DNA of 64,000 nt from Aurantiochytrium sp. KH105 (lineage: Eukaryota; Sar; Bigyra; Thraustochytrida; Thraustochytriidae), in contig BGKB01000042.1 in NCBI GenBank assembly GCA_003116975.1, positions 202,385 through 266,384 of the forward strand. Reading direction: 5' to 3'. Shown in pieces: positions 1-50,431 of this stretch. The stretch's first letter is position 1, and the number at the start of each line of letters is the position of its first letter. The notes under the pieces were generated by a model. It was not told the origin of the DNA. It made no database searches and saw nothing but the letters and a program-made list of their open reading frames with translations. Position numbers and translations under genes: made by a program.

Positions 1-3000
1 AGGGTGATGACCATGCGCCTTCTTTCGAGCATGGCGCGGTCGATCAAGATGACGCTTCGCTTCATTACCTTGCGGACGATGATGAGGTCGTCAACGAGGT
101 CGTCCATGAGCATCTTGACAATCACGGGGACGAAGAAGAGGACGAGTCGTACGACAAAAATATGGCTAATGACGCGTACAGAGAGAGAGATAAAGGAGAA
201 AGCGATGAAGATGACGATGATGAGGACGTGAATCATTACGATGATCATGGCGGCGGCGGCGGCGATGGCGGGGAAGGCGGGCATGATGAGGGCAACGACG
301 ACGAAGATCGCGCCGGTAGCGGGAGCGAAGATGAGACGCCCAAGGAAGAAGGCCTCGAGGAAGGTCTCAGCGGGCAACGTGCGGTCAGCAAGGCTATCGA
401 ACTGATGCGAAACGGCGTCAAAACGATTGAGTACGTTGAGAATTTTCTCCTAAGGGAAATTGACCTATATTCAATCCGATTTATTGACATTATTCCCGCA
501 AATTATCCTCAGTCTTACCAAGCGTTATATCGGCGACAAAGGGGGCATGGCGCTGGGAGAAGAGCTTGGTACGAACACCTCACTCATTTTGTTGACGTAA
601 GTTAGCGCTTGTGCGGGATTTTGTCTGATGGAAGCGCGCACATGTTTTCGCAAGGATAGAATCGGAGTTGTCGAAATTGAATGCATTATTGCACAATGCC
701 AGGAAGACACTGACTTTATGTGCTTGTCGCCATCACCCAGTCTTGAAAAGAATGGGATCCAGGGAGAGGGTGGCGTTGCTCTGGCCCAAGCCCTGCACCA
801 GAACTCCTCGCTTACCACGCTTTCGTAAGTCAAAGCTTGTCTCGGAATTGATTAGGAAAAGTGCCAACAAAAGAGATTCTGGTGAAGGCAGCTGGATATT
901 AGCGTCGTGTAACGACGCCATTACATAGTAAGCAAGAGACTAACAACCTCAGACTCTCAAAAAATGCAGTCTCAAGTGCAACAGCATTGGTGTCGATGGC
1001 GCGTTTGGTTTTGCGCACGCATTGACGGTGAACTCCACGCTCTGCTCGCTGAAGTAAGTTGAGCCTCGATCTGTCATAGTGACAAAAGAAAGGACTCGTG
1101 CAGGCATCGCCGGAATCCTCTGGTCGAGCACTCAGCCCCGATGCCATTATTTCGGTGTTAAAAGAAACCCAAAGCAAAGAGAGGGTCTCTTGGAAAAGAG
1201 TTGTTCGAAGACTTACATGGCTCGCTTATTGTCACGACTTCAATAGTCTTGGAAGCGAACAGTTCGAGAAGAGCAATGGCATTGGAGACGATGGGGTCTT
1301 GGCGCTCGTCGATGCACTGAGCGAGAATACAGTACTCACGTCCTTGGAGTAAGTTGGGGGCTTGAGATAGGTGCAGAGGACTTGTGACGACACTCCTACG
1401 CCAAATCCTAAATTACAAGACTGACATCTCAAATTAATTTCACTGACAACACACAGTCTCAGCTTCAACGGCATCAGTGCGGTTGGTGGCAAAGCAATTG
1501 CAGACTTGCTCACCACGAACACGTCGCTGCAAATTCTCAGGTATGTTCTGATGTATCTTGATAATGGTCAACAAGGCAGCATGGGTGTCTTTCTGCGTGA
1601 AGGAAGGCAGCTGGGCGTTCGTGGCGGAGAGCAGAAAGGCGGGACTGCGCCATGACAACGGCGACGGCGAAGGCGACGGCGACATGAGGGTGGGCACTGA
1701 CAGCCATTTTGCGCTCATCAATGAATGCAATAAATGCAATAAATGCCATGCCACACCACAATCATCATGCACAGTCTTGGACACAACGGCATCGGCGACT
1801 CGGGCGCCGTAGAGCTCGGGGAAGGCCTGGGCAAGAACAGGTCGCTTACGTCTTTGAAGTAAGTTGGTTCGGTTTTGTTTTGCTGCCTTTGATTGGAGGC
1901 AAGACTTTGAATTGGACAACGCAAGAAGGCGGCATGCGTGGACTTCTGCGTGAAGGAAGGCAGGTGGGTGTTCGTGGCGGAGAGCAGAAAGGCGGGACTG
2001 CGCCAAGACGACGGCGACGGCGACATGAGCGCGGACACTGACAGCCATTTCGCGTTCATCAATGAATGCAATCAATGCAATCAATGCCATGAATGCCATG
2101 CCACACCACAATCATAATGCACAGTCTTTACAAGAACAAGATCGGCTCAAATGGCGCCGTTGGGCTCGGGGAAGGCTTGGGCAAAAATAGGTCGCTTACG
2201 TCTTTGAAGTAAGTTGGTTCGGTTGTGTTTTGCTGCGTTTGATTGGAGTCAAGACTTTGGATTGGACAACGCAAGAAGGCGGCATGTGTTGATTTCTGCG
2301 TGAAGGAAGGCAGGTGGGCGTTCGTGGCGGAGAGCAGAAAGGCGGGACTGCGCCAAGACGACGGCGACGGCGACGGCGACATGAGGGTGGACACTGATAG
2401 CCATTTCGCGCTCATCAATGAATGCAATCAATGCAATCAATGCCACACCACAATCATCACGCACAGTCTTGGACACAACAGAATCGGCGACTCGGGCGCC
2501 GTTGGGCTCGGGGAAGGCTTGGGCAAGAACGGCTCGCTTACGTTTCTAATGTATGTTGGTTCGGTTGTGTTTTGCTGCGGTTGATTGGAGGCAAGACTTG
2601 GAATTGGACAAGAAAGGCGGCATGCGTGTATTTCTGCGTGAAGGAAGGCAGGTGGGCGCTCGTGGCGGAGAGCAGAAAGGCGGGGCTGCGCCAAGACGAC
2701 GGTTACGGCGACATGAGGGTGGACACTGACAGCCATTTCGCGCTCAACAATCAATGCAATCAATGCAATCAATGCAATCAATGCAATCAATGCAATCAAT
2801 GCAATCAATGCCATGTCACACCACAATCATCATGCACAGTCTTGAGTCGAACAAGATCGGCGACTCGGGCGCCGTTGGGCTCGGGGAAGGCTTGGGTAAG
2901 AACGGCTCGCTCACGTCTTTGAAGTATGTTGGTTCGGTTGTGTTTTGCTGCGTTTGATTGGAGGCAAGACTTTGGATTGGACAACGCAAGAAGGCGGTAT

Positions 3001-6000
3001 GCGTGGATTTCTGCGTGAAGGAAGGCAGGTGGGCGTTCGTGGCGGAGAGCAGAAAGGCGGGACTGCGCCAAAACGACGGCGACGTCGACATGAGGATGGA
3101 CACTGACAGCCATTTCGCGCTCATCAATGAATGCAATGAATGCAATCAATGCCATGCCACACCACAATCATCATGCACAGTCTTGAGTCGAACAAGATCG
3201 GCGACGATGGCGCCGTTGGGCTCGGGGAAGGCTTGGGCAAGAACAGCTCGCTTACGTCTTTGAAGTAAGTTGGTTCGGTTGTGTTTTGCTGCGTTTGATT
3301 GGAGGCAAGACTTTGGATTGGAGGTAAGGCGGTGGCATGCGTTGATTTCTGCGTGAAAGAAGGCAGGTTGGGGTTCGTGGCGGAGAGTAGAAAGGCGGGA
3401 CTGCGCCAAGACGACGGCGGCGGCTACATAAGGGTGGACACTGACAGCCACTTCGCGCTCATCGATGGCTGCAATGAATGCCTTGAACGACTTGCCACAA
3501 TCATCATGCACAGTCTTGAGGAAAACAACATCGGCGCATCTGGCGAATTCGCGTTGGTGAGTGCTCTTTTGGCTCAGAATTGTCGTTTGCACGAATTCAG
3601 GTAAGTTTTGTCTGAAATGGCTTGTGCATTGTGTGGATACGTTTTACATCCTTCATACTAATTTAGAATTTCTATTCAGAGGCATACGTCCTCTTCCATC
3701 CCTGTCCTGGACGGAGTTGCTGAAGCTCCCGACAGGTGGTGCTCGTGTAGAGAGAATTTTGGAATTTTACCTGAACGAAGATGGAGAGAAATGGACTCCA
3801 GCCGCGCATGACTTAGCTGGAGAGCACGCAGACCTATTCGCCGTCTTTCTTACTGCTTTATGCGCTTGTTATTTACCAAGTGTGCAGAATCGTCTCGGCA
3901 AGGCCGATTTATGGCTTCTCAGAAACGAGGGAGCGAAGGATGAGGAATTCTCGATCGAGGAAAAAGATTCCGCTATTCCTTTGATTCATGCCCTGTTCGA
4001 CTGCCGCACAGCAAAATCAGAATACTCACTTTCGCGATGGTTTTGCGATGAAGTTCTCGCAAAATGCCTGTCTCTCGAAGATGGGCTCCAGTTGATGATT
4101 GCCGAAGATGAAGGCGGCCGATCTCTTCGATCACTTGCACTCACCAACAAAAACACCAAGAAGTGGGCGAAGACGTATGGCATGTATCTCGATCGTTATA
4201 GTATCATGGAAGGCCCTCCAGTGCATGAATCCAAAACGTGTGCGGTCCACTACGCGACGGATATCCAGAGAAATGAAGCTGTGGCGCTCAAGATCATGCG
4301 GAGAAAAGACCAATACGATCGCGAGATTGTTGCACGCACAGCTGCAGACGGCGGAGATGCGAATCTTGAAGGCTGTTTACCACTTCTCCACCGCGAGGAT
4401 GCGAATTTCGCTGAGCGCCTTGATGAGGAGCTATGCTTGGTGATGACAAAGGGTTCGCGTTCACTGTTTGAAGCCATCAACACGGAGCGCTTTGCCGGCC
4501 GTGACCTGCAAAAGATTCGGGCGATTGCGTACAAGATTATTTTTGCGGTCAAAGGTCTGCACGACAGCGGTCGAATTCATGGTGACATCAAGCCACGCAA
4601 CGTTGTGCGTGTCGCCGCTTCAAGGCAACACACATTCTCGTATGGCGATAAAGGAGATCGTCTCGAGGTGTCAAAAGAATGCCGAGAAGACGTGACGGGA
4701 GAGCGTTCTGTCTCCGCAAGTGACGACGACTGGCAACTTATAGATTTGGACGCGTCGGCACCGATAAATTATGAAAAGGTGCCAAAGAAAAAGAGTGTCG
4801 TCACGAACAAGGTGAGTACTGGCTACGCAGCTCCTGAACTGGCCAAGTGGCACTTTCTCCACGAAGCAAAAGAGGACATGGCCCCCCAGGCCGACCCGGC
4901 AATCGACGTTTGGGGTTTTGGCGTGGTGCTTTTTCAGTTGTTCTCTGGTACAAAGCTCTTCATGGTCGACGACTCCGACGATAATATCGTAACAATTCGC
5001 GAACAGACTGAGCTTATGAACTGGCTCGGGGTGGACGACGAGCGTCTACATCGCATCAAGCTACGAGAGAGCAAAGAGAAGGGGGAGACAGATGATCTTT
5101 GTGCAACTGAATTTGATGTCGAGGCCGCCCGTGACCTCGTTCGTCTGTGCTTGCGTGGTGACCCGGGCGAGCGCATCACCGTGAAGCAGATCATCGACGA
5201 GCACCCTTTCTTTGAATCAATTCGAACGAATACGTGCGAGCCGTGCGAGGAGGTGGATGCCGTCGTCACAAGTACACCAGTGCGCGCGAGCAGATCCAAG
5301 ACGCGTTTCTCACGCCGCGTTATGAGTCTGCACAAAGCCATTATTCCGCGTCGGTTCAGCCTTTTCGGACGCACCACAAAAGCGCGGCTGCGCAGAAGCA
5401 TGACACCGAACGAATTTTACAAACAAGGTGCTCACAGTGAACTCATAGAGCTCCCGACGTACCACTTTTTCTTGTCGCACATGCAGTTGCAGGCGGCCGG
5501 GATCGTTAAGGACCTTGCAGCTGGCCTCGGACGGCACCAGCTATCATCGTGGATCGATATGCGCGCGTCAGAAATCACACTCGAGTCGATGTATCGAGGT
5601 GTTTTGGCATCAAGGCGCTTTGTCATGGTTCTCACGAAGGACGTGCTCTTCAGACCATACTGTCTCGCAGAGCTTTACTTTGCGGTTGAGTTCTTCAAAA
5701 CTTCGTCTCGATATGATGATTTGGAATGGAGCATCTTCTTTATCGTCGAGATGGATGATCGCTTCGATCCGTGGAGCGAGAGTGATGTGCCTTGGCGTGA
5801 AGGAACGGAAGCGGAGGGGGATCAACGTGCCATAGAAGCCGGTGAATTGAGAGAGACGCTAGACAACCTAGGTTTGAAGGATTGGAAAGGCGGTCCCGCG
5901 AAGTCAGAGGAGATTCTGTTTAACGCGAAACAAGCACTCGAACATTGCAAAAAGATACCTTACCGTCGTCGCCTCTATGAGGAAGAGGCAATGCTTCAAG

Positions 6001-40769: not shown

Positions 40770-41994
40770 GGCGAGGAGGGGCCCGTCCCTTGGGGTCGCC
40801 GCGAGAGCAACGCGAAGCGGAGTACAAAGCGCCGCGCAGACTTCGGCCGCCCCGCGGCCTCCGTGCGCGTCGAGGTGGCCGCGAGTCGAGGGAGGCCTTC
40901 TTTCTCCTGTGAGCGAGCGATCTCCAATCTCGCGCACGTGGGCGCGCGTGGACGCGGAGACGGCGGAGAGCGCCGGCGCTCGCAGCGAGCAGCGCCGGCG
41001 GCGGTGGCGGCGGGAGCGGAGTCGCGCGCGGTCTCGCGGCTCGCGCGAGGTCTGTGCGCGCGGTCGGTCTCGGGAATCGGGTTTGAAATCGAGGCCGGAC
41101 CTCAGAAATAAAAAAAAGAAAATTTGAATTGAAAGAGACCGAAGGGCCGCCAGGGCGTCGCGCAAGTGCGCTATCGCGCCGCGCAAGTGGGTTATAGCGC
41201 GCCCGCCAGCCGCGCAAGTGAAACCGCGGGGGCCGGCGCGCGTCCGGGTCCCGTACGCGCGCGCCACCCGCGTCGTGCATCTGCGCGCATAAATTCTTTT
41301 GTCGATTTCGCGCAGCCCGCCGCGCGGCGCGTACCGGACTCGAAGCCTCGTTTTCGAATCGGCCTCCGGGCGCCGCGCGAGCGGAACGAGTGGAACGCCC
41401 CGGCGCTATGATTTATATGGACGCGACGCGCGGCCGGCGGCCCCGAATTGGAACAGATAAAGGAACGTCCGCGGAACGAAGGCGGAACGGCGACCAACCC
41501 GCGGCGAAGGAGAGGAGAGCCGGCACAAGGCGGCCGACGAGGACGACAAGTACGAGAACGACGAGGACGAGGACGACGATAAAAACGACGAGGACGGGAA
41601 CGACGAGGACGAGAACGAGGACGAGGAGAGTTTCTGCGTCGCGTCGCGAAAGTTGTTTTCTGCGTGGAGCTCCGGGCGGGAAGATGCGGGAAACGTGGGA
41701 CGATTCGGGGGCACACGACAGCGACTGGGAGTTGAGCCGAAAAAGAGGTTGATGATGCAGGATGGAGATGGAGACCCGGGCGGAGAAGAGTAGTAGAGCC
41801 GGACGCTGGACGTGGCAGCGTTGACGCGAGGAATTGTGGTCATGACGAGTGAGAGTGGTGAGCTTGCGTGCTCGAGTCCGATGACGGGTGATGTCTTCGG
41901 CCAGCCAGGGCGGAGGTGAGACGCGTTGCTGAGACCTGCGGGTTCGCATGCTCTTCGAAAGTGAACCATGGCCGTCGACGCGGGCCCAGCGCAG
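40770..41994. other. 5' flank of the MYB gene, 1.2 kb
   Basis: Strongly GC-rich up to about 41480. Then comes a GACGAG-type hexamer/trimer repeat (about 41535-41625), then ordinary sequence up to the satellite. Overlapping GC-rich frames on both strands show no domain. Confidence 0.45.
41535..41625 (+). repeat. GAC/GAG-rich simple repeat
   Basis: Imperfect GACGAG and AACGAC units, read as Asp/Glu/Asn codons in one frame and as CGTCCTCG on the other strand. No gene is attached. Confidence 0.75.
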
Positions 41995-42975
41995 CTGGAA
42001 CTTGCAGGGGGCGACGGAGGTATAGCATGAGAAGTGCGCGGCCATAGGAAAGCCAGAGGATCCGTGGATGGGCCACCCGATGGAATATTGGGGGGATTCT
42101 AAAGAGTGGCCTTGCGCCGTCTTGATCGAAATGTCGCAATCGTACTACAGTCGCTGCGCTGGAACTTGCAGGGAGCGACGGATGCACTAGCATGAGAAGT
42201 GCACGGCCTTGGGAGAGCCAGAGGATCCGTGGATGGGCCACCCGATGGACTCCACTAGGGGAATTCCAAAGAGTGGCCTGGCGCCGTCTTGATCGAAATG
42301 TCCCAATCGTCCTACAATCGCTGCGCTGGAACTTGCAGGGAGCCACGGATGTACTAGCATGAGAAGTGCACGGCCATAGGAAAGCCAGAGGATCCGTGGA
42401 TGGTCACCCGATGGACTAATGGGGGAATTCCAAAGAGCGGCCTTTCGCCGTGTTGATCGAAATGTCGCAATCGTCCTACAGTTGCTGCACTGGAACTTGC
42501 AGGGAGCCACGAATGTACTAGCATGAGAAGTGCACGGCCATAGGAAAGCCAGAGGATCCGTGGGTGGTCACCCGATGGACTACTGGGGGAATTCCAAAGA
42601 GCGGCCTTTCGCCGTGTTGATCGAAATGTCGCAATCGTTCTACAGTTGCTGCGCTGGAACTTGCAGGGAGCCACGGATGTACTAGCATGAGAAGTGCACG
42701 GCCATAGGAAAGCCAGAGGATCTGTGGGCCATCAACAAATGGATTCTAAAGGTATAAACCCAAAGAGCGGCCTTTCACCGTGTTGATCGAAATGTCGCAA
42801 TTGTCCTACAATTGCTGCGCTGGAACTTGCAGGGAGCCACGGATGTACTAGCATGAGAAGTGCACGGCCATAGGAAAGCCAGAGGATCTGTGGGCCATCA
42901 ACGAATGGATTCTAAAGGTATAAACCCAAAGAGCGGCCTTGAACGAAATGATCGCAATCGTATTCCTGTCGCTGC
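41995..42975. repeat. Satellite-like tandem array, six units of about 165 bp
   Basis: Units begin with CTGGAACTTGCAGG at 41995, 42159, 42326, 42490, 42654 and 42820; a seventh start at 42976 diverges after a few bases. Periods are 164, 167, 164, 164, 166 and 156 bp. Each unit contains GCATGAGAAGTGCACGGCC, AAAGCCAGAGGATC, AAAGAGCGGCC and TTGATCGAAATGTCGCAATC. The last two units share a variant middle (ATCAACGAATGGATTCTAAA type). Unit lengths are not all multiples of three, so the minus-strand frames across it are not a coding repeat. Confidence 0.92.
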
Positions 42976-43537
42976 CTGGAACTTTGGTTTGCGACGTCAA
43001 AGATTGGGACTACATGCGTTTGGGATGTATCCTACTCGTGAAGTGAAGAGGCAAGCTTCTGTCGGATGAAATGATCGATCGGCTTACGAAGTCGACAGTC
43101 AATGAGAATGACATAAAGTTCATATGCTCGCCATGGGAAAGACGAGATATCACCCTGATGTTGTCTGTGTTTAGGTCACCTTGCTCGCTGGATGAAATGC
43201 ACGTTCTGCAGAAAACTTGGTCTTTTCTTTCGCTGCACATGTCGTCGCCCTCACTCGGTCAGATGCACTCCTTTCGTTCCCTTCCCTTAATTATACAGAT
43301 TCTTGTCGCAATATCGACAAATCAATACGCACTCGCATCAAAAGCCGCAAAGCCTGTCTATTCCATCAACAAGCTCTTCCGGGGCTCTCCGTCGTCTGAC
43401 GGATTGAAGATCGACCCATTCTGTCTGCCTGAGATCCGACTGAGATCGACCCAACGTTTGGCGACGATAAATGGAAGGGAAAGTAGATCGATGAAAAAAC
43501 ATGGTGGTTAAGCTGCGCGTAGGCCTAGTCTCGCAAC
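42976..43537. other. Region between satellite array and helicase gene
   Basis: About 560 bp that should contain the helicase promoter. A 146-codon plus frame (43071-43511) shows no domain or codon pattern and is treated as chance. Confidence 0.5.
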
Positions 43538-46500
43538 ATGCCTCGGACACGCGCGGCGCGGAGAAAGGCTGCCGCGGGTAGCCGGGCTGCTGCCCCGGCC
43601 ATGCAAGCGGTTGTCACTCAGCCTACGAGCGTAGAGCTCATCGTTATCCTCAAGTGGTCCATCGACGAAGTGACATGCGGGGTCCACCTCCCGTTCACGC
43701 TCAGCCAAACAGGGCAAGGCGACGACATCGCGTACACTGTCGGGCGCGTCTTCACGTCGGGAGAGTCTCGCTTTGCGCAAGGGGACTGCATATGTCGAAC
43801 AGACAAAGATAACTTCGAAAGCGACAAAACGGCACACCGCCTGGCGATATCTTCAGAGCGCAAAGAGACTGTAGCCTTTCGCAAGGTTTTCCATTTCCAC
43901 ACCCGCGAGCAAGGTCTTGCCTTTCCTCAAATCGTCGAGAAAGAGCAAGGCTATTGCTTTACAAATTGGGAAACGCCCGGAAACTTTGCTCATCAGTTGG
44001 GCATTGGTCCAGATGACTTGCTCGTTCTCGTCAACAATCTGCGCGTTGGCAGCTCGTACATGTCCATGGCTGGAGGTCTCGAGCCGTGGCTGCTCGCATC
44101 TCAGCAGCCTATACGCTTGTGCATCATGTGCAAGGAGCGCCCAATCTTTCGGACCGGAGGTACGCCCCAAACTCCGCGGGGCATTGTGCGGAAGCGAACA
44201 CACGAAAGCGCCACCTCGCCCAGCAAATTAAGTGAGACCGCATCAGGCATCTCGAATACAGCTTCACAAGGTATTGGAACAGACTCGGTCCTCGACCGAA
44301 GCCCCAAACGCCAAGCACAAGATGCCAGTGCGGCAGAAGGGGATTTGGGACCTGACGGTCTACTCGTGGCTGAGCAAACCGTCTCTCTCAGCTGCCCCGT
44401 CACACTCACGAGACTTCGACGTCCTGTGCGTGGCGCGGAATGCACGCACCCTCGCGCGGTAGAGCTCGAGTTCTGTCAAAGAGGCCAAAAGTGCCCGCTG
44501 TGTGGGAAACTCGTGACGACGGTCGTCAAGGACATGGATTTACAATCCCTCTTGGCAAGCACACCCGAAAAAGTCATGCAAGCGTCCGTGACATATGATG
44601 GAAGCAAATTCACCTTTCGCCCCGTGGTCCCTGCAGGTATCTCCGCCAGCGCAATTCTCGACGTGGACGGAGACGCAGCGTCTGATGCGCCACTGTCGCC
44701 GCGCGACAGCTTTATTGACACTCTTGTCACCTCCATTCTCTCCGTTCCCGCGCCAGGAGCCAGCTCTGACACCTCCTCGATCAAGGAAAATCTCCCACAA
44801 CCTGCCGCGCCGCCACAGTCGGTCGCACAAGCAGCTAGCAAGCGCGAGGCACCCGTGATAAAACGCGAATCTTCGTCACTTGGCGTCACCGCCGAAGGCA
44901 AGCTCGGTGCAAGCGATCAACCACAGAGCTTGCACGCGATCCTGTCTCGCTTCAGCAATGAAGACTTGAATGCCGCTGACAAATTGGCCATGACCATTTC
45001 GGAACTTTCCATCCAGGAGACAAAGGTGATCGGGCGAGGCATGGGCGCCGAGTTCGCTCATCGCGCACGCTGGCCACCGTGCCGTCTCGTCGAAGCCAAA
45101 GCGAAAAAGCGCATTTTTATCGGCGGCGTGGAGATCCTCTTTCCCCATCGCAAGCCGCTCGTCCCGCAGACTCGCGTCATGGTGGAAATGATTGCTTGTC
45201 TCAAGAGCAAGTCGCATGCCTTGCTCGAAAGTCCGACGGGAACGGGCAAAACTGCCGCAACTCTTAGCGCTGCGCTTAGCTGGCAACGCTATCATGACAT
45301 GCGCGGCTGGGCCGATTTTTCCGGGACGCCTCGCACCATCTACTACTTGACACGAACACACTCACAAGCGACGCAGGTCGTCGCAGCCTTGCGCGGCATG
45401 CCATATCGGCCCATGATTGTTACGCTAGCCAGTCGCGTCAATCTTTGCTCCAATCAGGCCGTCATGACAGAAGCAGAAGGGTCGAATGAGGGTCTCTCTG
45501 CATGCTGCTCGCAAGCTGTCAAGGCGGGCACATGCTTGCCCTTCAAGCAGCTTCTCAAGTACAATGTCGTGGACCATTTGTACAAGCTCACACGAACCAA
45601 GATTGCAGCCACCGAAGACGACGGCCTCTTTGACATTGAGGATCTCCGTAGCTTTGGGCCCTCTGCACAAGATCATGGATGTCCCTTTTTTGCATCAAAG
45701 GCGCTCCATCCCTCGGCGCAGCTGGTCATTTGCCCATACAATTATGTCATTGATCCAGACATTCGCAGCGTCGTCATTCCAAATGCGAACGAAGGATCGA
45801 GCGTTTTCATCTTCGACGAAGGCCACAATCTTGAAAGTTCATGCCTCGAGACAGGCTCTTGTACGCTTCGTTTGCCGACCGTGCTCGAGATCGTCAAGGA
45901 CCTCTGCGTGCTTTCTTCGTTCTCCGACTGGATTGCAGAAGAAAACATGCCCGTGCGCTCACTTGCGTTGGATGTCATGCTTGTCTTTGACAAGATTGCC
46001 CAATTTCTGCTCAACCAGCGCGCTGGGTGGATACGCACGTCCGAATCGGACCGCGTCACCAAAGAAGAAAAAACGCGCGAGTTATACAAGCGCGGAGGTA
46101 TTGCATCTTCAACAGGTACTGCGCTTGCGAGCATGGTGTTCAGGGACATTGGTCTCAGCGAAGCGACTCTTTCCAACGCCGAGGAAGCTCTGGCGAAGAT
46201 CTTGCGTGCTCTCGCCGATCTCGGCCATGTCAACCCGGACGATGTCACAGCGTACGACGCAAGACCACGACAGCTGCGGTCCCTCGCCATGACCGGCGCC
46301 AAGTCTCTTCGGGTGCTATCAATGATGAAGAAAATTCCCCAAGACTTTTATGCCGTGGTGAACGCAACGCGAATCGATGCTGCGGCAGACCTCGTCCACA
46401 ATTTTCATCGCGACTTTAACGAGCCTTCTCACCGTCCCGCACGGACCTGCTCTCGCACACATGGCACATACTTGAACCAAAACGTCGGTGAAGTGGAATG

Positions 46501-47818
46501 GACCGTGGAACTTCGCCTCATGCTCATGAATCCGGGCGCTGTTTTCAACGATGTCGCCAGCATTGCGCACTCTGTGATTGTCGCGTCCGGCACGCTCTTC
46601 CCCATGAATTCGCATGAGTTTGGCAAGGCCTTTCATGAGCGTCTACGTGTCAAGGACCGTCAAATTGCCCTTGACCACGTCATCAAGCTCGAACAGCAAC
46701 TCTATATGAGCGTGATTCCGCGCTCGCCCACAGGCGATCTTCTTGATGGATCATACCGGAGTCGTCAGCAACTCGGGCCTTTTCGTTACGAAGCGGCGCT
46801 GTTCGAGACAATTCGCGTGGTGCTGCGAGACGCCGTCTCCATCCAAGGCGGTAGCCTTGTCTTTGTGTCGAGCTTTAAGCAGCTCACGGACTTGGAAAAC
46901 TTCATGCAACAGAATCACTTTGTTGCGAGACTCCAAGCTGAACGCGGACCAGTCATCTTCGAGAATACCAGCGTCGAGGACCTCGAGGATGCAGCGAGTG
47001 ATTTTGATGAAGATAGTGATGATGGCGGGAACGAGTACAACGAAGACGAAGAGGACGATAGCGGTTACGACGGCTGGCCCTGGGGAAATGCAAGAAGTCG
47101 GCACCAGCAGCAGAGGCAGCGAAACGGCGGCTGGAACCGGGGTCAGCGCAAAGGTCATCCACGAAGGAGAACGGGGAAACCCAAGTCGGCCTTTGAGCTG
47201 GCCAAGGCTCGGTTTCGTGGGGCTGTGGACGCCGGCCAAAGTCCTGTTCTCTTTGCAGTATTCCGAGGCCGTATGTCCGAGGGCATTGACTTCAAGGACA
47301 ACTATTGCCGAGCTGTCTTTCTCGTCGGAATTCCTTACCCTGCGCTTTTTGATAGCGCAATCAAATACAAGCGAGCGTGGAACGACTCGAAACATGCTGC
47401 TGGCGAATCATATGTGCGAGGGGGCGAATGGTATTCGCAGCAAGCGTTTCGAGCCATGAATCAAGCACTTGGTCGGGTGATTCGCCACAAGAATGACTTT
47501 GGTGCCGTTTTCTTCGTTGACGCTCGCCTTGACGATGTCAATATGCATCGGCACTTGGCACGCTGGTGTCGAGGGGCCATCAAGCGCGACTTTTTTCCGA
47601 GGCTTGTACCGCGCGTTCGTACCTTTTTTGATCAGCTTCCAGAGCATCTCAAGAACCCCGCTGCCGCCGCGGAATTGGCTGCTGCCACGCCTTTATCTTC
47701 GTCTCAAAATTCGCAAGACAGTTTTCTCTCACTGGGCAGCGCACCTCCATCTTCGTCTAACCAAACATCTTCAACGTCGTCGTCGTTGTCTTCGTCGTTG
47801 TCGTCCTCGGCAACATAG
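43538..47818 (+). CDS. Rad3/FANCJ-type iron-sulphur DNA helicase fused to an SP-RING and a PDZ-like domain
   Basis: A 1426-aa intronless protein from ATG 43538. A PDZ-like segment lies at about residues 125-197 (NFAHQLGIGPDDLLVLVNN). An SP-RING of PIAS/Siz type is at about 280-345: VSLSCPVTLTRLRRPVRG, then C-T-H and CPLC, which supply the four zinc ligands, then DMDLQSLL. From about 525 the helicase follows: LLESPTGTGKT Walker A (about 560), an iron-sulphur Cys set (NLCSN, SACCSQ, GTCLP, GCPFF), DEGH in place of DEAH (about 758), FRGRMSEGIDF and QALGRVIRH (about 1309). Overall it is closest to FANCJ/BRIP1 and RTEL1, 5'-3' helicases that resolve G4 DNA, R-loops and crosslinks. An acidic Asp/Glu insertion lies near 1150-1180, and a Ser-rich tail ends the protein. 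Confidence 0.88.
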   Translation: MPRTRAARRKAAAGSRAAAPAMQAVVTQPTSVELIVILKWSIDEVTCGVHLPFTLSQTGQGDDIAYTVGRVFTSGESRFAQGDCICRTDKDNFESDKTAHRLAISSERKETVAFRKVFHFHTREQGLAFPQIVEKEQGYCFTNWETPGNFAHQLGIGPDDLLVLVNNLRVGSSYMSMAGGLEPWLLASQQPIRLCIMCKERPIFRTGGTPQTPRGIVRKRTHESATSPSKLSETASGISNTASQGIGTDSVLDRSPKRQAQDASAAEGDLGPDGLLVAEQTVSLSCPVTLTRLRRPVRGAECTHPRAVELEFCQRGQKCPLCGKLVTTVVKDMDLQSLLASTPEKVMQASVTYDGSKFTFRPVVPAGISASAILDVDGDAASDAPLSPRDSFIDTLVTSILSVPAPGASSDTSSIKENLPQPAAPPQSVAQAASKREAPVIKRESSSLGVTAEGKLGASDQPQSLHAILSRFSNEDLNAADKLAMTISELSIQETKVIGRGMGAEFAHRARWPPCRLVEAKAKKRIFIGGVEILFPHRKPLVPQTRVMVEMIACLKSKSHALLESPTGTGKTAATLSAALSWQRYHDMRGWADFSGTPRTIYYLTRTHSQATQVVAALRGMPYRPMIVTLASRVNLCSNQAVMTEAEGSNEGLSACCSQAVKAGTCLPFKQLLKYNVVDHLYKLTRTKIAATEDDGLFDIEDLRSFGPSAQDHGCPFFASKALHPSAQLVICPYNYVIDPDIRSVVIPNANEGSSVFIFDEGHNLESSCLETGSCTLRLPTVLEIVKDLCVLSSFSDWIAEENMPVRSLALDVMLVFDKIAQFLLNQRAGWIRTSESDRVTKEEKTRELYKRGGIASSTGTALASMVFRDIGLSEATLSNAEEALAKILRALADLGHVNPDDVTAYDARPRQLRSLAMTGAKSLRVLSMMKKIPQDFYAVVNATRIDAAADLVHNFHRDFNEPSHRPARTCSRTHGTYLNQNVGEVEWTVELRLMLMNPGAVFNDVASIAHSVIVASGTLFPMNSHEFGKAFHERLRVKDRQIALDHVIKLEQQLYMSVIPRSPTGDLLDGSYRSRQQLGPFRYEAALFETIRVVLRDAVSIQGGSLVFVSSFKQLTDLENFMQQNHFVARLQAERGPVIFENTSVEDLEDAASDFDEDSDDGGNEYNEDEEDDSGYDGWPWGNARSRHQQQRQRNGGWNRGQRKGHPRRRTGKPKSAFELAKARFRGAVDAGQSPVLFAVFRGRMSEGIDFKDNYCRAVFLVGIPYPALFDSAIKYKRAWNDSKHAAGESYVRGGEWYSQQAFRAMNQALGRVIRHKNDFGAVFFVDARLDDVNMHRHLARWCRGAIKRDFFPRLVPRVRTFFDQLPEHLKNPAAAAELAAATPLSSSQNSQDSFLSLGSAPPSSSNQTSSTSSSLSSSLSSSAT

Positions 47819-48186: not shown

Positions 48187-49812
48187 TTATTGTGAAGAAC
48201 CAGCGAGAAGCTCCTTGAGACGAGCAATGTACTGGTCGCGCGGGACTTCCTCCTCATCCTTGGAGACAATGTTGCGGATCTTGATCTTGCCAGCCTCGAG
48301 CTCAGACTTTCCGACGACGACAGCAAAGGGGATGGCGTTCTTCTCGCAGTGCTGAACCTGGGTCATGAACTTGGCGCTGGCCTTGTACGAGGTTTCGGCG
48401 CTAAGACCGGCCTCCCAAAGCTCGGAGCAGACCTTCATGCGCTCGCGGAGAATCTCCTGCTTGTCCTCCGCAGTGGCAATGCCTACGACCTGGATTTCGG
48501 TCGGGCGACTTGCGACGGCGCCCTCTTGCGACTTTTGGCGGTTGGCCACGACGGTAAAGAGACGCTCAATGCCGAGACTCACGCCAACGCAAGGAATCTT
48601 CTTGTCCTTCTTCTTGCCCTTCTTGGCAAGAAACATACCAACGAGGTTATCGTAGCGGCCGCCGCCGGCAACCGAACCGACTTCAGCGCCGACAAGAACA
48701 GCCTCGTAGATAACACCCGTGTAGTAGTCGAGGCCGCGGGCCATGCTGAGGTCAAAGGAAACGCGGTTCGCGGGCACACCATAGCAGTCACAGAATTCAA
48801 AAAGGAGCTTCATGGCGTCGAGGCCGGCCTTTGCAGACTCATTGGCGCAGAGATCCTCGTCTTCGAGAAGCTTGGCCACGAGTTCAGGGCCGCCCTTTTG
48901 CTGTGCGTAGCCCCAAATCTTTTCTGCGACCTCGCCCGAAATGCCCTTGCGAATCATCTCCTCCTTGACCTCTGGCCACTCCGTCTTGTCGAGCTTGTCG
49001 ACAGCCGAGCAGATCGGGCGAAAGAGATCGTCGGGGACGCCGCAGACGGCAAAGATGCCGTCGAGGAGCTGACGGTGGTTGATCTTGACGAGAAAGTCGC
49101 CGACATCCAGACCGCCAAGAATGTCCGTGACAATCTTGACGCACTCGGCATCCGCGACCATTGGCTCGTACTCGCCTGCAATGTCAATGTCGCACTGGTA
49201 GAACTCGCGATAGCGACCCTTGGTCATGACCGGGTTGTCGCGACGGTAAACGCGAGCAATGTGGTACCGCTTGATGGTCTCGACGCCGTGCTCGGCACAA
49301 TAGCGGGCAAAGGGGACGGTAAGATCGTAGCGCAGGGCAAGAATCTCGCCGCCTTGGTCCGCCAGGTCGTAGATGAGCTTGCTGTCCTCGCCGTATTTGC
49401 CCGTGAGCGTCTCCTTGAGCTCCGCGACGGGTGTCTCGATGCTCACCGCGCCGTGGCGCTTAAAGACGCCCTTGATGGTGTCAAAGACACGCTCGCGCAC
49501 GGCCATCTCCTCGGGGTGGTAGTCGCGCATGCCCAGCGGGGTCTTGGGCTGGTACTTGCCGCCCTTCTTCTTGCTCTTCTTGGGCGCCGCCTCCGCCTCC
49601 TTGCTGGCGCTCTCGCCGCGCAGCTCGAGGACCATCTTTTGCAGGGCCTCGACGTCGTCGGGAAGACCCGCCGCGAGTTCCTTGAAATCCTTCAAGTACG
49701 AGGCCTCGGGCTCGTCCACCACGGCGGCGTTGTTGTCCACGTCGTCCGCCGCGGTGGCCGCCGTGGCCGCCACGGCGCCGGCGGCAATCGCCGCAGCCGC
49801 CACCACCTCCAT
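48187..49812 (-). CDS. HARS: Histidyl-tRNA synthetase
   Basis: A 541-aa protein from ATG 49812; the extension to 49911 begins at GTG. It charges tRNA-His. Class II motifs are complete: TPLGMRDYHPEEM at the start of the core, the motif-2 region KRYHIARVYRRDNP to REFYQCDIDI, the His-specific LDYYTGVIYEAVL, GGGRYDNLV, and motif 3 CVGVSLGIERLF. The C-terminal anticodon-binding domain follows (about 440-541). The N-terminus is an Ala/Asp-rich segment and an acidic helix, with no clear targeting signal. Only one reading start is obvious, so a mitochondrial isoform would need another start or gene. Confidence 0.95.
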   Translation of the reverse strand: MEVVAAAAIAAGAVAATAATAADDVDNNAAVVDEPEASYLKDFKELAAGLPDDVEALQKMVLELRGESASKEAEAAPKKSKKKGGKYQPKTPLGMRDYHPEEMAVRERVFDTIKGVFKRHGAVSIETPVAELKETLTGKYGEDSKLIYDLADQGGEILALRYDLTVPFARYCAEHGVETIKRYHIARVYRRDNPVMTKGRYREFYQCDIDIAGEYEPMVADAECVKIVTDILGGLDVGDFLVKINHRQLLDGIFAVCGVPDDLFRPICSAVDKLDKTEWPEVKEEMIRKGISGEVAEKIWGYAQQKGGPELVAKLLEDEDLCANESAKAGLDAMKLLFEFCDCYGVPANRVSFDLSMARGLDYYTGVIYEAVLVGAEVGSVAGGGRYDNLVGMFLAKKGKKKDKKIPCVGVSLGIERLFTVVANRQKSQEGAVASRPTEIQVVGIATAEDKQEILRERMKVCSELWEAGLSAETSYKASAKFMTQVQHCEKNAIPFAVVVGKSELEAGKIKIRNIVSKDEEEVPRDQYIARLKELLAGSSQ

Positions 49813-50431
49813 GATCCCTTTTGGCTCCTCCTCTTGCGCGGCGCGAGCGCGAGCGCGAGCGTACAACGGGTGGTCGCGCGCGGGCGAAGGGCCTGCGAGA
49901 CGCGCCGCCACGGGCGCCGCCGGCGCTCCTGTCGTGTCCGCGAGGCGCTGCGTGCAACGCGAGGCGGAGCAGTTGCGGATACAAGTCTGCTTTGGTGATT
50001 TGGTGGTCGAGGAGCAGGAGGAGATGCATTCTTATGATGATCGATGGGCCCCACATAGAAGTGTTACCAGCGACTTGCCGCGTGGCCTTGGAAATGTTCT
50101 TTGCGATTGTGTAGGGCAGCACAGGCCATCTCAGTTCACGTCGAATTTGCTTTGCTCTGCTCTTCATGATTGGATTGCATGTGTTTCGGGAACGACACAG
50201 GAGAGTGCAGAAGAAGGGTCTTCTTCTTGCGTTCTTAGCAAGATTCTTCTTTGCTCAGTAGCCTACTACCACGACGACAAGAAATGAGCAAAGCAAAGCG
50301 GAGCAAAGCAAGGCAAAGCTGAACATACAGAACAACAACAACATTGAATTTCAAAGGATAAAAAGGAGGGACGGCGAGCAGCATTGTGCACGTCAAAGAA
50401 AGGGCTCAGCAGCAGAAAAAAGGAAAGAACG
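49813..50431. other. Intergenic region, 0.62 kb
   Basis: HisRS 5' flank and 3' flank of the four-TM gene. Contains a GCAAA/GCGGA pentamer cluster at about 50286-50320. No gene is seen. Confidence 0.5.
50286..50320 (+). repeat. Imperfect pentamer repeat (GCAAA)n
   Basis: AGCAAAGCAAAGC-type units with GCGGA and GCAAG variants, about 475 bp upstream of the HisRS start. Confidence 0.65.

Follow-up and report, generated by a model that had tools for sequence, protein, structure and literature searches.

The Fusion Gene and Its Two Copies

The subject of this analysis is a 64,000-nucleotide stretch of DNA from Aurantiochytrium sp. KH105 (contig BGKB01000042.1, positions 202,385 to 266,384), referred to here as the window, and a gene within it that encodes an SP-RING of the Siz/PIAS type ahead of a Rad3-type iron-sulfur (Fe-S) helicase. 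As reported in a first-pass annotation made from the letters alone, the gene is one uninterrupted frame (43538-47818, forward strand, 1426 codons). It is bounded upstream by an in-frame TAG at 43526-43528, which is separated from the ATG by three codons. The features of the gene and its predicted product are, in window coordinates:

43538..47818, + strand: whole gene, a single uninterrupted frame of 1426 residues
43946..44137, + strand: weak PDZ-like stretch, about residues 137-200 (own-genome PDZ profile)
44354..44392, + strand: strand before the ring, residues 273-285, DGLLVAEQTVSLS, aligned to Siz1 GLTTTSTIMSLQ (PDB-sequence alignment)
44393..44503, + strand: SP-RING core, residues 286-322, with Cys302, His304, Cys319, and Cys322, and 14 residues between His304 and Cys319
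44516..44617, + strand: segment after the ring, residues 327-360, ending in a YDG strand and resembling the Siz1 SP-CTD (phmmer alignment to SIZ1 and SIZ2 through DG)
44654..44668, + strand: ILDVD, residues 373-377, followed by GDAASDAPLSPRDS, resembling a SUMO-interacting motif (SIM; pattern match)
44669..45112, + strand: linker between the SIM-like motif and the helicase, residues 378-525 (silent excess between haplotypes in residues 381-505)
45113..47587, + strand: Rad3-type helicase, residues 526-1350 (Pfam, TIGR00604, and motif reading)
46958..47212, + strand: acidic and then basic insert in helicase domain 2, about residues 1141-1225 (alignment with the organism's own FANCJ and RTEL1)

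The genome comprises 76 Mb in 367 contigs, and most of the genes examined occur as pairs, which are read as two haplotypes. The second-haplotype copy of the fusion gene (L015:3392-7675) encodes 1427 residues and, like the copy in the window, adjoins a gene resembling histidyl-tRNA synthetase (HisRS). Counting gives 116 substitutions between the two copies, of which 82 are silent and 34 are replacements. The coding frame has a single 3-base indel in 4284 columns and is kept, compared with four indels in 548 columns upstream and three in 368 columns downstream. Silent changes are in excess in residues 1-200 (11 silent, 3 replacement; P = 2e-5), in the linker between the SP-RING and the helicase (residues 381-505; 11 silent, 5 replacement, and no indels; P = 2.9e-4), and in the helicase (residues 506-1370; 51 silent, 12 replacement; P = 7e-22). 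Because the frame is kept, indels are scarce, and the changes are biased toward silent ones, a single coding sequence running through both halves is supported.

The SP-RING

The ring has the C-x-H ... C-P-x-C arrangement of a single zinc site, in which Cys302, His304, Cys319, and Cys322 align with SIZ1, SIZ2, PIAS2, and PIAS3, and by analogy these four residues are the predicted zinc ligands. The sequences C-P-V and C-P-L-C are kept. The SP-RING with C-x-H and CPxC ligands described in the first-pass annotation is borne out by matches in Pfam, in the PDB, and with a Siz/PIAS profile. Pfam was searched with the whole protein and with a 103-residue fragment, and the E-values are library-wide. 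The zf-MIZ family matches residues 282-323 with E = 4.9e-5 (23.5 bits) for the whole protein and E = 2.9e-6 (27.4 bits) for the fragment, both under the curated cut-off of 33.5 bits; the corresponding values for zf-Nse, with a cut-off of 27, are 1.2e-4 (22.3 bits) and 3.5e-6 (27.2 bits). Among PDB chains, the fragment comes closest to SIZ2 (E = 0.0034), SIZ1 (0.0091), PIAS2 (0.077), and PIAS3 (0.21). In genome-wide searches, zf-MIZ matches 4 of 15 candidates, which are the two copies of PIAS and the two of the fusion gene, and zf-Nse matches 8 of 20, among them a RING read as BRE1-like (L040). Since this BRE1-like RING, at 27.4 bits, scores like the two fusion copies (26.9 and 27.5 bits), zf-Nse alone is not specific.

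The Siz/PIAS profile was built from four PDB ring segments and the genome's own PIAS, with the fusion protein left out, and was run against 4028 frames, taken from the window and the fetched loci and not from the whole genome. At E < 0.01 it retrieves only the organism's own PIAS, the fusion protein in both haplotypes, and the organism's own Nse2. The top match, PIAS (E ~1e-39), is itself a member of the profile. The fusion protein scores 23.6-24.9 bits (E ~1e-5), outranked only by PIAS, and Nse2 scores 20.4-20.6 bits (E ~1e-4). The next frame reaches 8.2 bits (E = 0.85), and the BRE1-like RING is absent from the matches up to E = 10.

The residue after His304 is Ala where most SP-RINGs carry Cys, as had been noted from the sequence. 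The accompanying view that this residue is structural and not a ligand is reasonable, because Ser takes this position in the PDB chain of PIAS3 and the organism's own Nse2 likewise lacks Cys. The first Cys-Pro, retained in the fusion protein, is missing from the PIAS ring of the same genome.

Segments That Flank the Ring

The SIZ1 alignment spans the strand that precedes the ring (GLLVAEQTVSLSCP as compared with GLTTTSTIMSLQCP), the ring itself, and a following segment that closes in YDG as compared with SDG. According to PMC12751080, Siz1 contacts the donor SUMO through a SIM-like region, Leu-Thr-Thr-Thr, and we take this region to be equivalent to the strand before the ring. As described in PMC8064691, the SP-CTD encloses the ring and the SIM comes after it; the position of ILDVD in the fusion protein corresponds to this place. 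The pattern [VIL][VIL][DE][VIL][DE] matches once in the 1426 residues; when residues 323-505 are shuffled, it turns up in 22 of 1000 trials.

The Helicase and the Rad3 Family of the Genome

The earlier description of a complete iron-sulfur helicase holds. The DEAD_2 (E = 2.6e-31) and Helicase_C_2 (E = 1.2e-38) families match, and the TIGR00604 rad3 model scores 294 bits, over its NCBI cut-off of 246.95. The Walker A motif (residues 564-572), SGT (1017-1019), RGRMSEGIDF (1243-1252), and QALGRVIRH (1309-1317) are in place, so that motifs III, V, and VI are present; motif II is DEGH (760-763), and the four Fe-S cysteines are Cys637, Cys656 or Cys657, Cys666, and Cys715. The ring ends at residue 323 and the first helicase match begins at 526-534, a separation of about 205-211 residues, which confirms the spacing of about 210 residues between the SP-RING and the helicase that the first-pass annotation gave. 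RTEL1 and the organism's own FANCJ mostly lack the acidic and basic insert, although a short acidic stretch stands at this place in FANCJ.

A DEAD_2 search of the genome gave 10 candidates, all of which match and represent five helicases in two copies each. One copy each of RTEL1 (C1/C60, with ARCH_RTEL1) and XPD (C48/C242, with HBB) was scanned; C82/C182 is by score the genome's FANCJ, and C17/C36 is presumably CHL1/DDX11, a label that rests on an AGGT motif. With pieces of human FANCJ as the query, C182 and C82 score 396 and 394 bits, RTEL1 354, C17 236, the two haplotypes of the fusion protein 207-208, and XPD 172; with the full PDB FANCJ chain, C82 scores 378 bits as compared with 188 for the fusion protein. 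The proposal of a Rad3/FANCJ helicase thus stands as to the Rad3 family (294 bits) and fails as to FANCJ itself (207 bits against 394-396 for C82/C182), and the fusion protein was rejected as the organism's FANCJ. From these comparisons, the predicted protein is a fifth, strongly diverged member of the Rad3 family, the other four being XPD, RTEL1, FANCJ, and the CHL1-like protein. Its nearest BLAST relative is the organism's own FANCJ (218 bits, 26% identity over 775 residues), followed by RTEL1 (132 bits). A nine-row tree gives it a branch of 2.55 changes per column, with long-branch warnings, and leaves the fork with RTEL1, C17, and FANCJ open.

Two side observations were made on these helicases. 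The organism's own FANCJ (L020 and L021) has poly-Q and VVVANQDSQ-type repeats near the C terminus, and its length is 1189 or 1292 residues depending on the haplotype. PDB entry 8rev is named CHL1 yet behaves as XPD, with 767 bits to the organism's own XPD, and its name looks misleading.

SUMO Pathway and Repair Genes

A SUMO-like first exon (L082, G000:C18) is followed by an in-frame TAA that lies within GTAAGT, and we think that an intron starts at this GTAAGT. The genome also encodes a UBA2-type E1, a PIAS with SAP, PINIT, and SP-RING domains, and an Nse2-like protein, and 20 of 39 candidates match Peptidase_C48 (SENP type). Because these pathway genes are present, the SP-RING of the fusion protein would have partners. 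A SprT-like gene is present as well (2 of 3 candidates match). Several of the 25 Rad60-SLD matches were considered and rejected as SUMO: L031, L032, L038, and L079 were read as ubiquitin or ubiquitin fusions and L080 as another ubiquitin-like protein, and no ubiquitin-like frame was found among the four frames listed for L078. Polyubiquitin genes of five tandem units (G000:C31:284156-285280) and of two (G000:C93:179134-179574) are apparently haplotypes.

Comparison with Known Systems

The fusion protein shares with Siz1, Siz2, and PIAS the SP-RING ligands and, as judged from sequence, has Siz-like strands on either side and a SIM-like motif after the ring. It differs from them in having neither SAP nor PINIT, with a helicase as the DNA module instead of SAP, in a segment before CPxC that is 6 residues shorter, and in Ala for the Cys after His (Ser in PIAS3). 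With FANCJ/BRIP1 and RTEL1 it has in common the Rad3-type core, Walker A, the Fe-S cysteines, and motifs III, V, and VI, whereas DEGH in place of DEAH, the insert of about 85 residues, the N-terminal E3-type cassette, and the long branch set it apart. Nse2/Mms21 in Smc5/6 is an SP-RING E3 physically linked to a DNA-acting ATPase; there the link is made in a complex, whereas the fusion protein is one chain with a ring that scores as Siz/PIAS and a Siz-like YDG strand. Rad5/HLTF and Uls1 combine a RING with a SNF2 translocase and so likewise mount an E3 finger on a motor that acts on DNA, but theirs is a ubiquitin RING with a SNF2 motor, and the fusion protein has an SP-RING before an Fe-S helicase. 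Each of the two modules is known already, and what appears to be new is their order. No SP-RING-helicase fusion was described among the matches listed in the literature searches, and no relative was found in the viral contigs scanned; the fusion may well occur in other species. A weak match to residues 213-318 in a Pedosphaera metagenome-assembled genome (L077, from the bacterial and archaeal contigs) was dropped as chance because its frame has stops, it has none of the zinc ligands, and the match rests on the short stretch that served as the search pattern; another frame of L077, antisense, scores 5.1 bits with the Siz/PIAS profile.

Proposed Mechanism and Alternatives

The reading that we favor, with modest confidence, is that the protein is a single-chain SUMO E3 ligase in which the DNA helicase serves as the targeting module. 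The Fe-S helicase half would load onto single-stranded DNA and then translocate, and the tethered cassette of SP-RING, SP-CTD, and SIM-like motif would bind Ubc9~SUMO and keep it closed. Proteins encountered or unwound by the motor would receive a SUMO tag; candidates are RPA, PCNA, proteins that are crosslinked or tightly bound, and the enzyme itself. With a helicase in the place of SAP, the cassette would be brought to junctions with single-stranded DNA and carried along. We infer the E3 activity, the direction of travel, the substrates, and the pathway, and SUMO ligation at forks or lesions, the function suggested in the first-pass annotation, is plausible as an inference only.

There are precedents. 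PMC8591536 reports that Siz2 SUMOylates RPA ten-fold faster when the DNA is a duplex carrying a 3' overhang, and that its SAP domain helps through binding of duplex DNA. In the reconstitutions described in PMC12279946, FANCJ loads on single-stranded DNA, meets the crosslinked protein, and unfolds the adduct, and PIAS4 SUMOylates crosslinked-protein adducts. In view of these precedents, a fusion of a helicase with a SUMO ligase is biologically sensible. Repair of DNA-protein crosslinks or of forks would be the likeliest pathway, because unfolding by FANCJ and SUMOylation by PIAS4 share a lesion type and a SprT-type gene is present. A more ambitious version, which we put forward tentatively, is a SUMO ligase driven by a motor: the Rad3-family Fe-S helicase would have a complete Siz/PIAS cassette of its own and would SUMO-tag proteins as they are stripped, unfolded, or met during translocation. 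If this version is true, FANCJ-like unfolding and PIAS-like SUMOylation in crosslink or fork repair would be merged in one chain. SUMO ligases usually reach repair substrates through separate DNA-binding domains such as SAP or through complexes such as Smc5/6; a natural fusion to an Fe-S helicase would be direct evidence for coupling of helicase action and SUMO tagging, and would offer a one-protein system for asking whether translocation drives SUMOylation.

Several results weigh against a SUMO ligase of this kind. The zf-MIZ scores lie under the curated cut-off, and in the Siz/PIAS search the margin over the organism's own Nse2 is only ~3-4 bits, the best match being a member of the profile. 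The segment from His304 to Cys319 has 14 residues as compared with 20 in Siz1 and PIAS2 and 19 in the organism's own Nse2; being six residues shorter than in Siz1, it may give a different E2-facing surface. Pfam finds neither PINIT nor SAP in the fusion protein, and PINIT occurs in the genome only at C72/C149 (search to E = 1). Residues 201-271 are fast-changing between haplotypes (2 silent and 11 replacement changes), and the 1 silent and 2 replacement changes in the SP-RING (residues 272-345) are too few to gauge constraint. Structure prediction, proposed earlier as a check, was uninformative: single-sequence AlphaFold2 models had a mean predicted local distance difference test score (pLDDT) of 46.9 for the SP-RING fragment, with a low-confidence helix (333-340) and two low-confidence strands (348-353, 357-365), and of 30.2 for the N-domain. 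The pathway survey covered SUMO, E1, SENP-type proteases, PIAS, and Nse2. The fusion is known from one genome only.

Some of these points fit a real but non-catalytic SP-RING. As a relic or docking module, it would have no E3 activity of its own but would bind a partner, be it Ubc9, SUMO, or something else, and control the helicase. The zf-MIZ score, the shortened segment before CPxC, the missing PINIT, and a haplotype comparison without the power to reveal constraint on the ring are all compatible with this reading, but the four zinc ligands, CPV and CPLC, the Siz-like flanking strands, and the SIM-like motif are retained together, and the ring keeps the first Cys-Pro that the organism's own PIAS ring lacks. 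We consider this reading unlikely, though it deserves to be taken seriously. It is improbable that the finger pairs with a ubiquitin E2 in place of Ubc9, which would make the protein a ubiquitin-ligase helicase and, by analogy, a counterpart of Rad5/HLTF. There is a weak likeness to RINGs (zf-C3HC4_2, E = 0.28; RING2 chains, E = 0.6-1.4), but in Pfam the Siz/PIAS-type matches are better by about five orders of magnitude, and in the PDB by about two, and the only cysteines in residues 270-380 are 286, 302, 313, 319, and 322, so that the second RING zinc site is mostly without ligands; a canonical ubiquitin RING was rejected. Still less probable are two products, in which a downstream start or a separate transcript would yield the helicase and the SP-RING part would be a protein of its own. 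The linker is poor in conserved features and Met codons lie at residues 485 and 502, but the linker has no stop or indel and its changes between the two haplotypes are biased toward silent ones, and besides the other helicases the genome search yields only two copies, both full length. A chance likeness to the SP-RING is the least probable of all and was rejected, since, modest as the single-profile scores are, the library-wide E-value is 4.9e-5, the Siz/PIAS profile gives 23.6-24.9 bits as compared with 8.2 for the next unrelated frame, and the likeness extends beyond the ring.

The N-terminal PDZ-like Stretch

The first-pass annotation also placed a PDZ-like domain in front of the ring, and in this case the evidence is divided. 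The stretch PGNFAHQLGIGPDDLLVLVNNLRV resembles a PDZ core, and a profile of 18 of the genome's own PDZ sequences, including the near-identical pair L047 and L052, gives 9.0 bits on residues 100-205, a score that none of 2000 shuffles reaches (best 4.4); this test was made after the fact, prompted by that annotation. Against this, no Pfam PDZ family matches the fusion protein over its cut-off, and PDZ_2 (E = 0.28) falls on a different stretch, residues 77-114. The PDZ-like stretch is not among the 30 places found by the genome PDZ search. A genome search with residues 26-206 found only the haplotype copy and a match at chance level (E = 0.28), and a PDB search with the N-domain was likewise at chance level, with capsid proteins best (E = 0.37) and the DLG5 PDZ domain (1uit) at E = 1.6. 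The PDZ assignment is weakly supported.

Neighboring Features

The HisRS-like gene (48187-49911, - strand), read as histidyl-tRNA synthetase without a family search, is convergent with the fusion gene and also lies beside the other haplotype copy. Directly upstream of the fusion gene is a tandem array (41994-42893) of 5.5 copies of a 164-base unit with 91% matches. A second array, at 1569-3481 of the window, has 5.5 copies of a 350-base unit with internal short runs of the CAATCAATG type.

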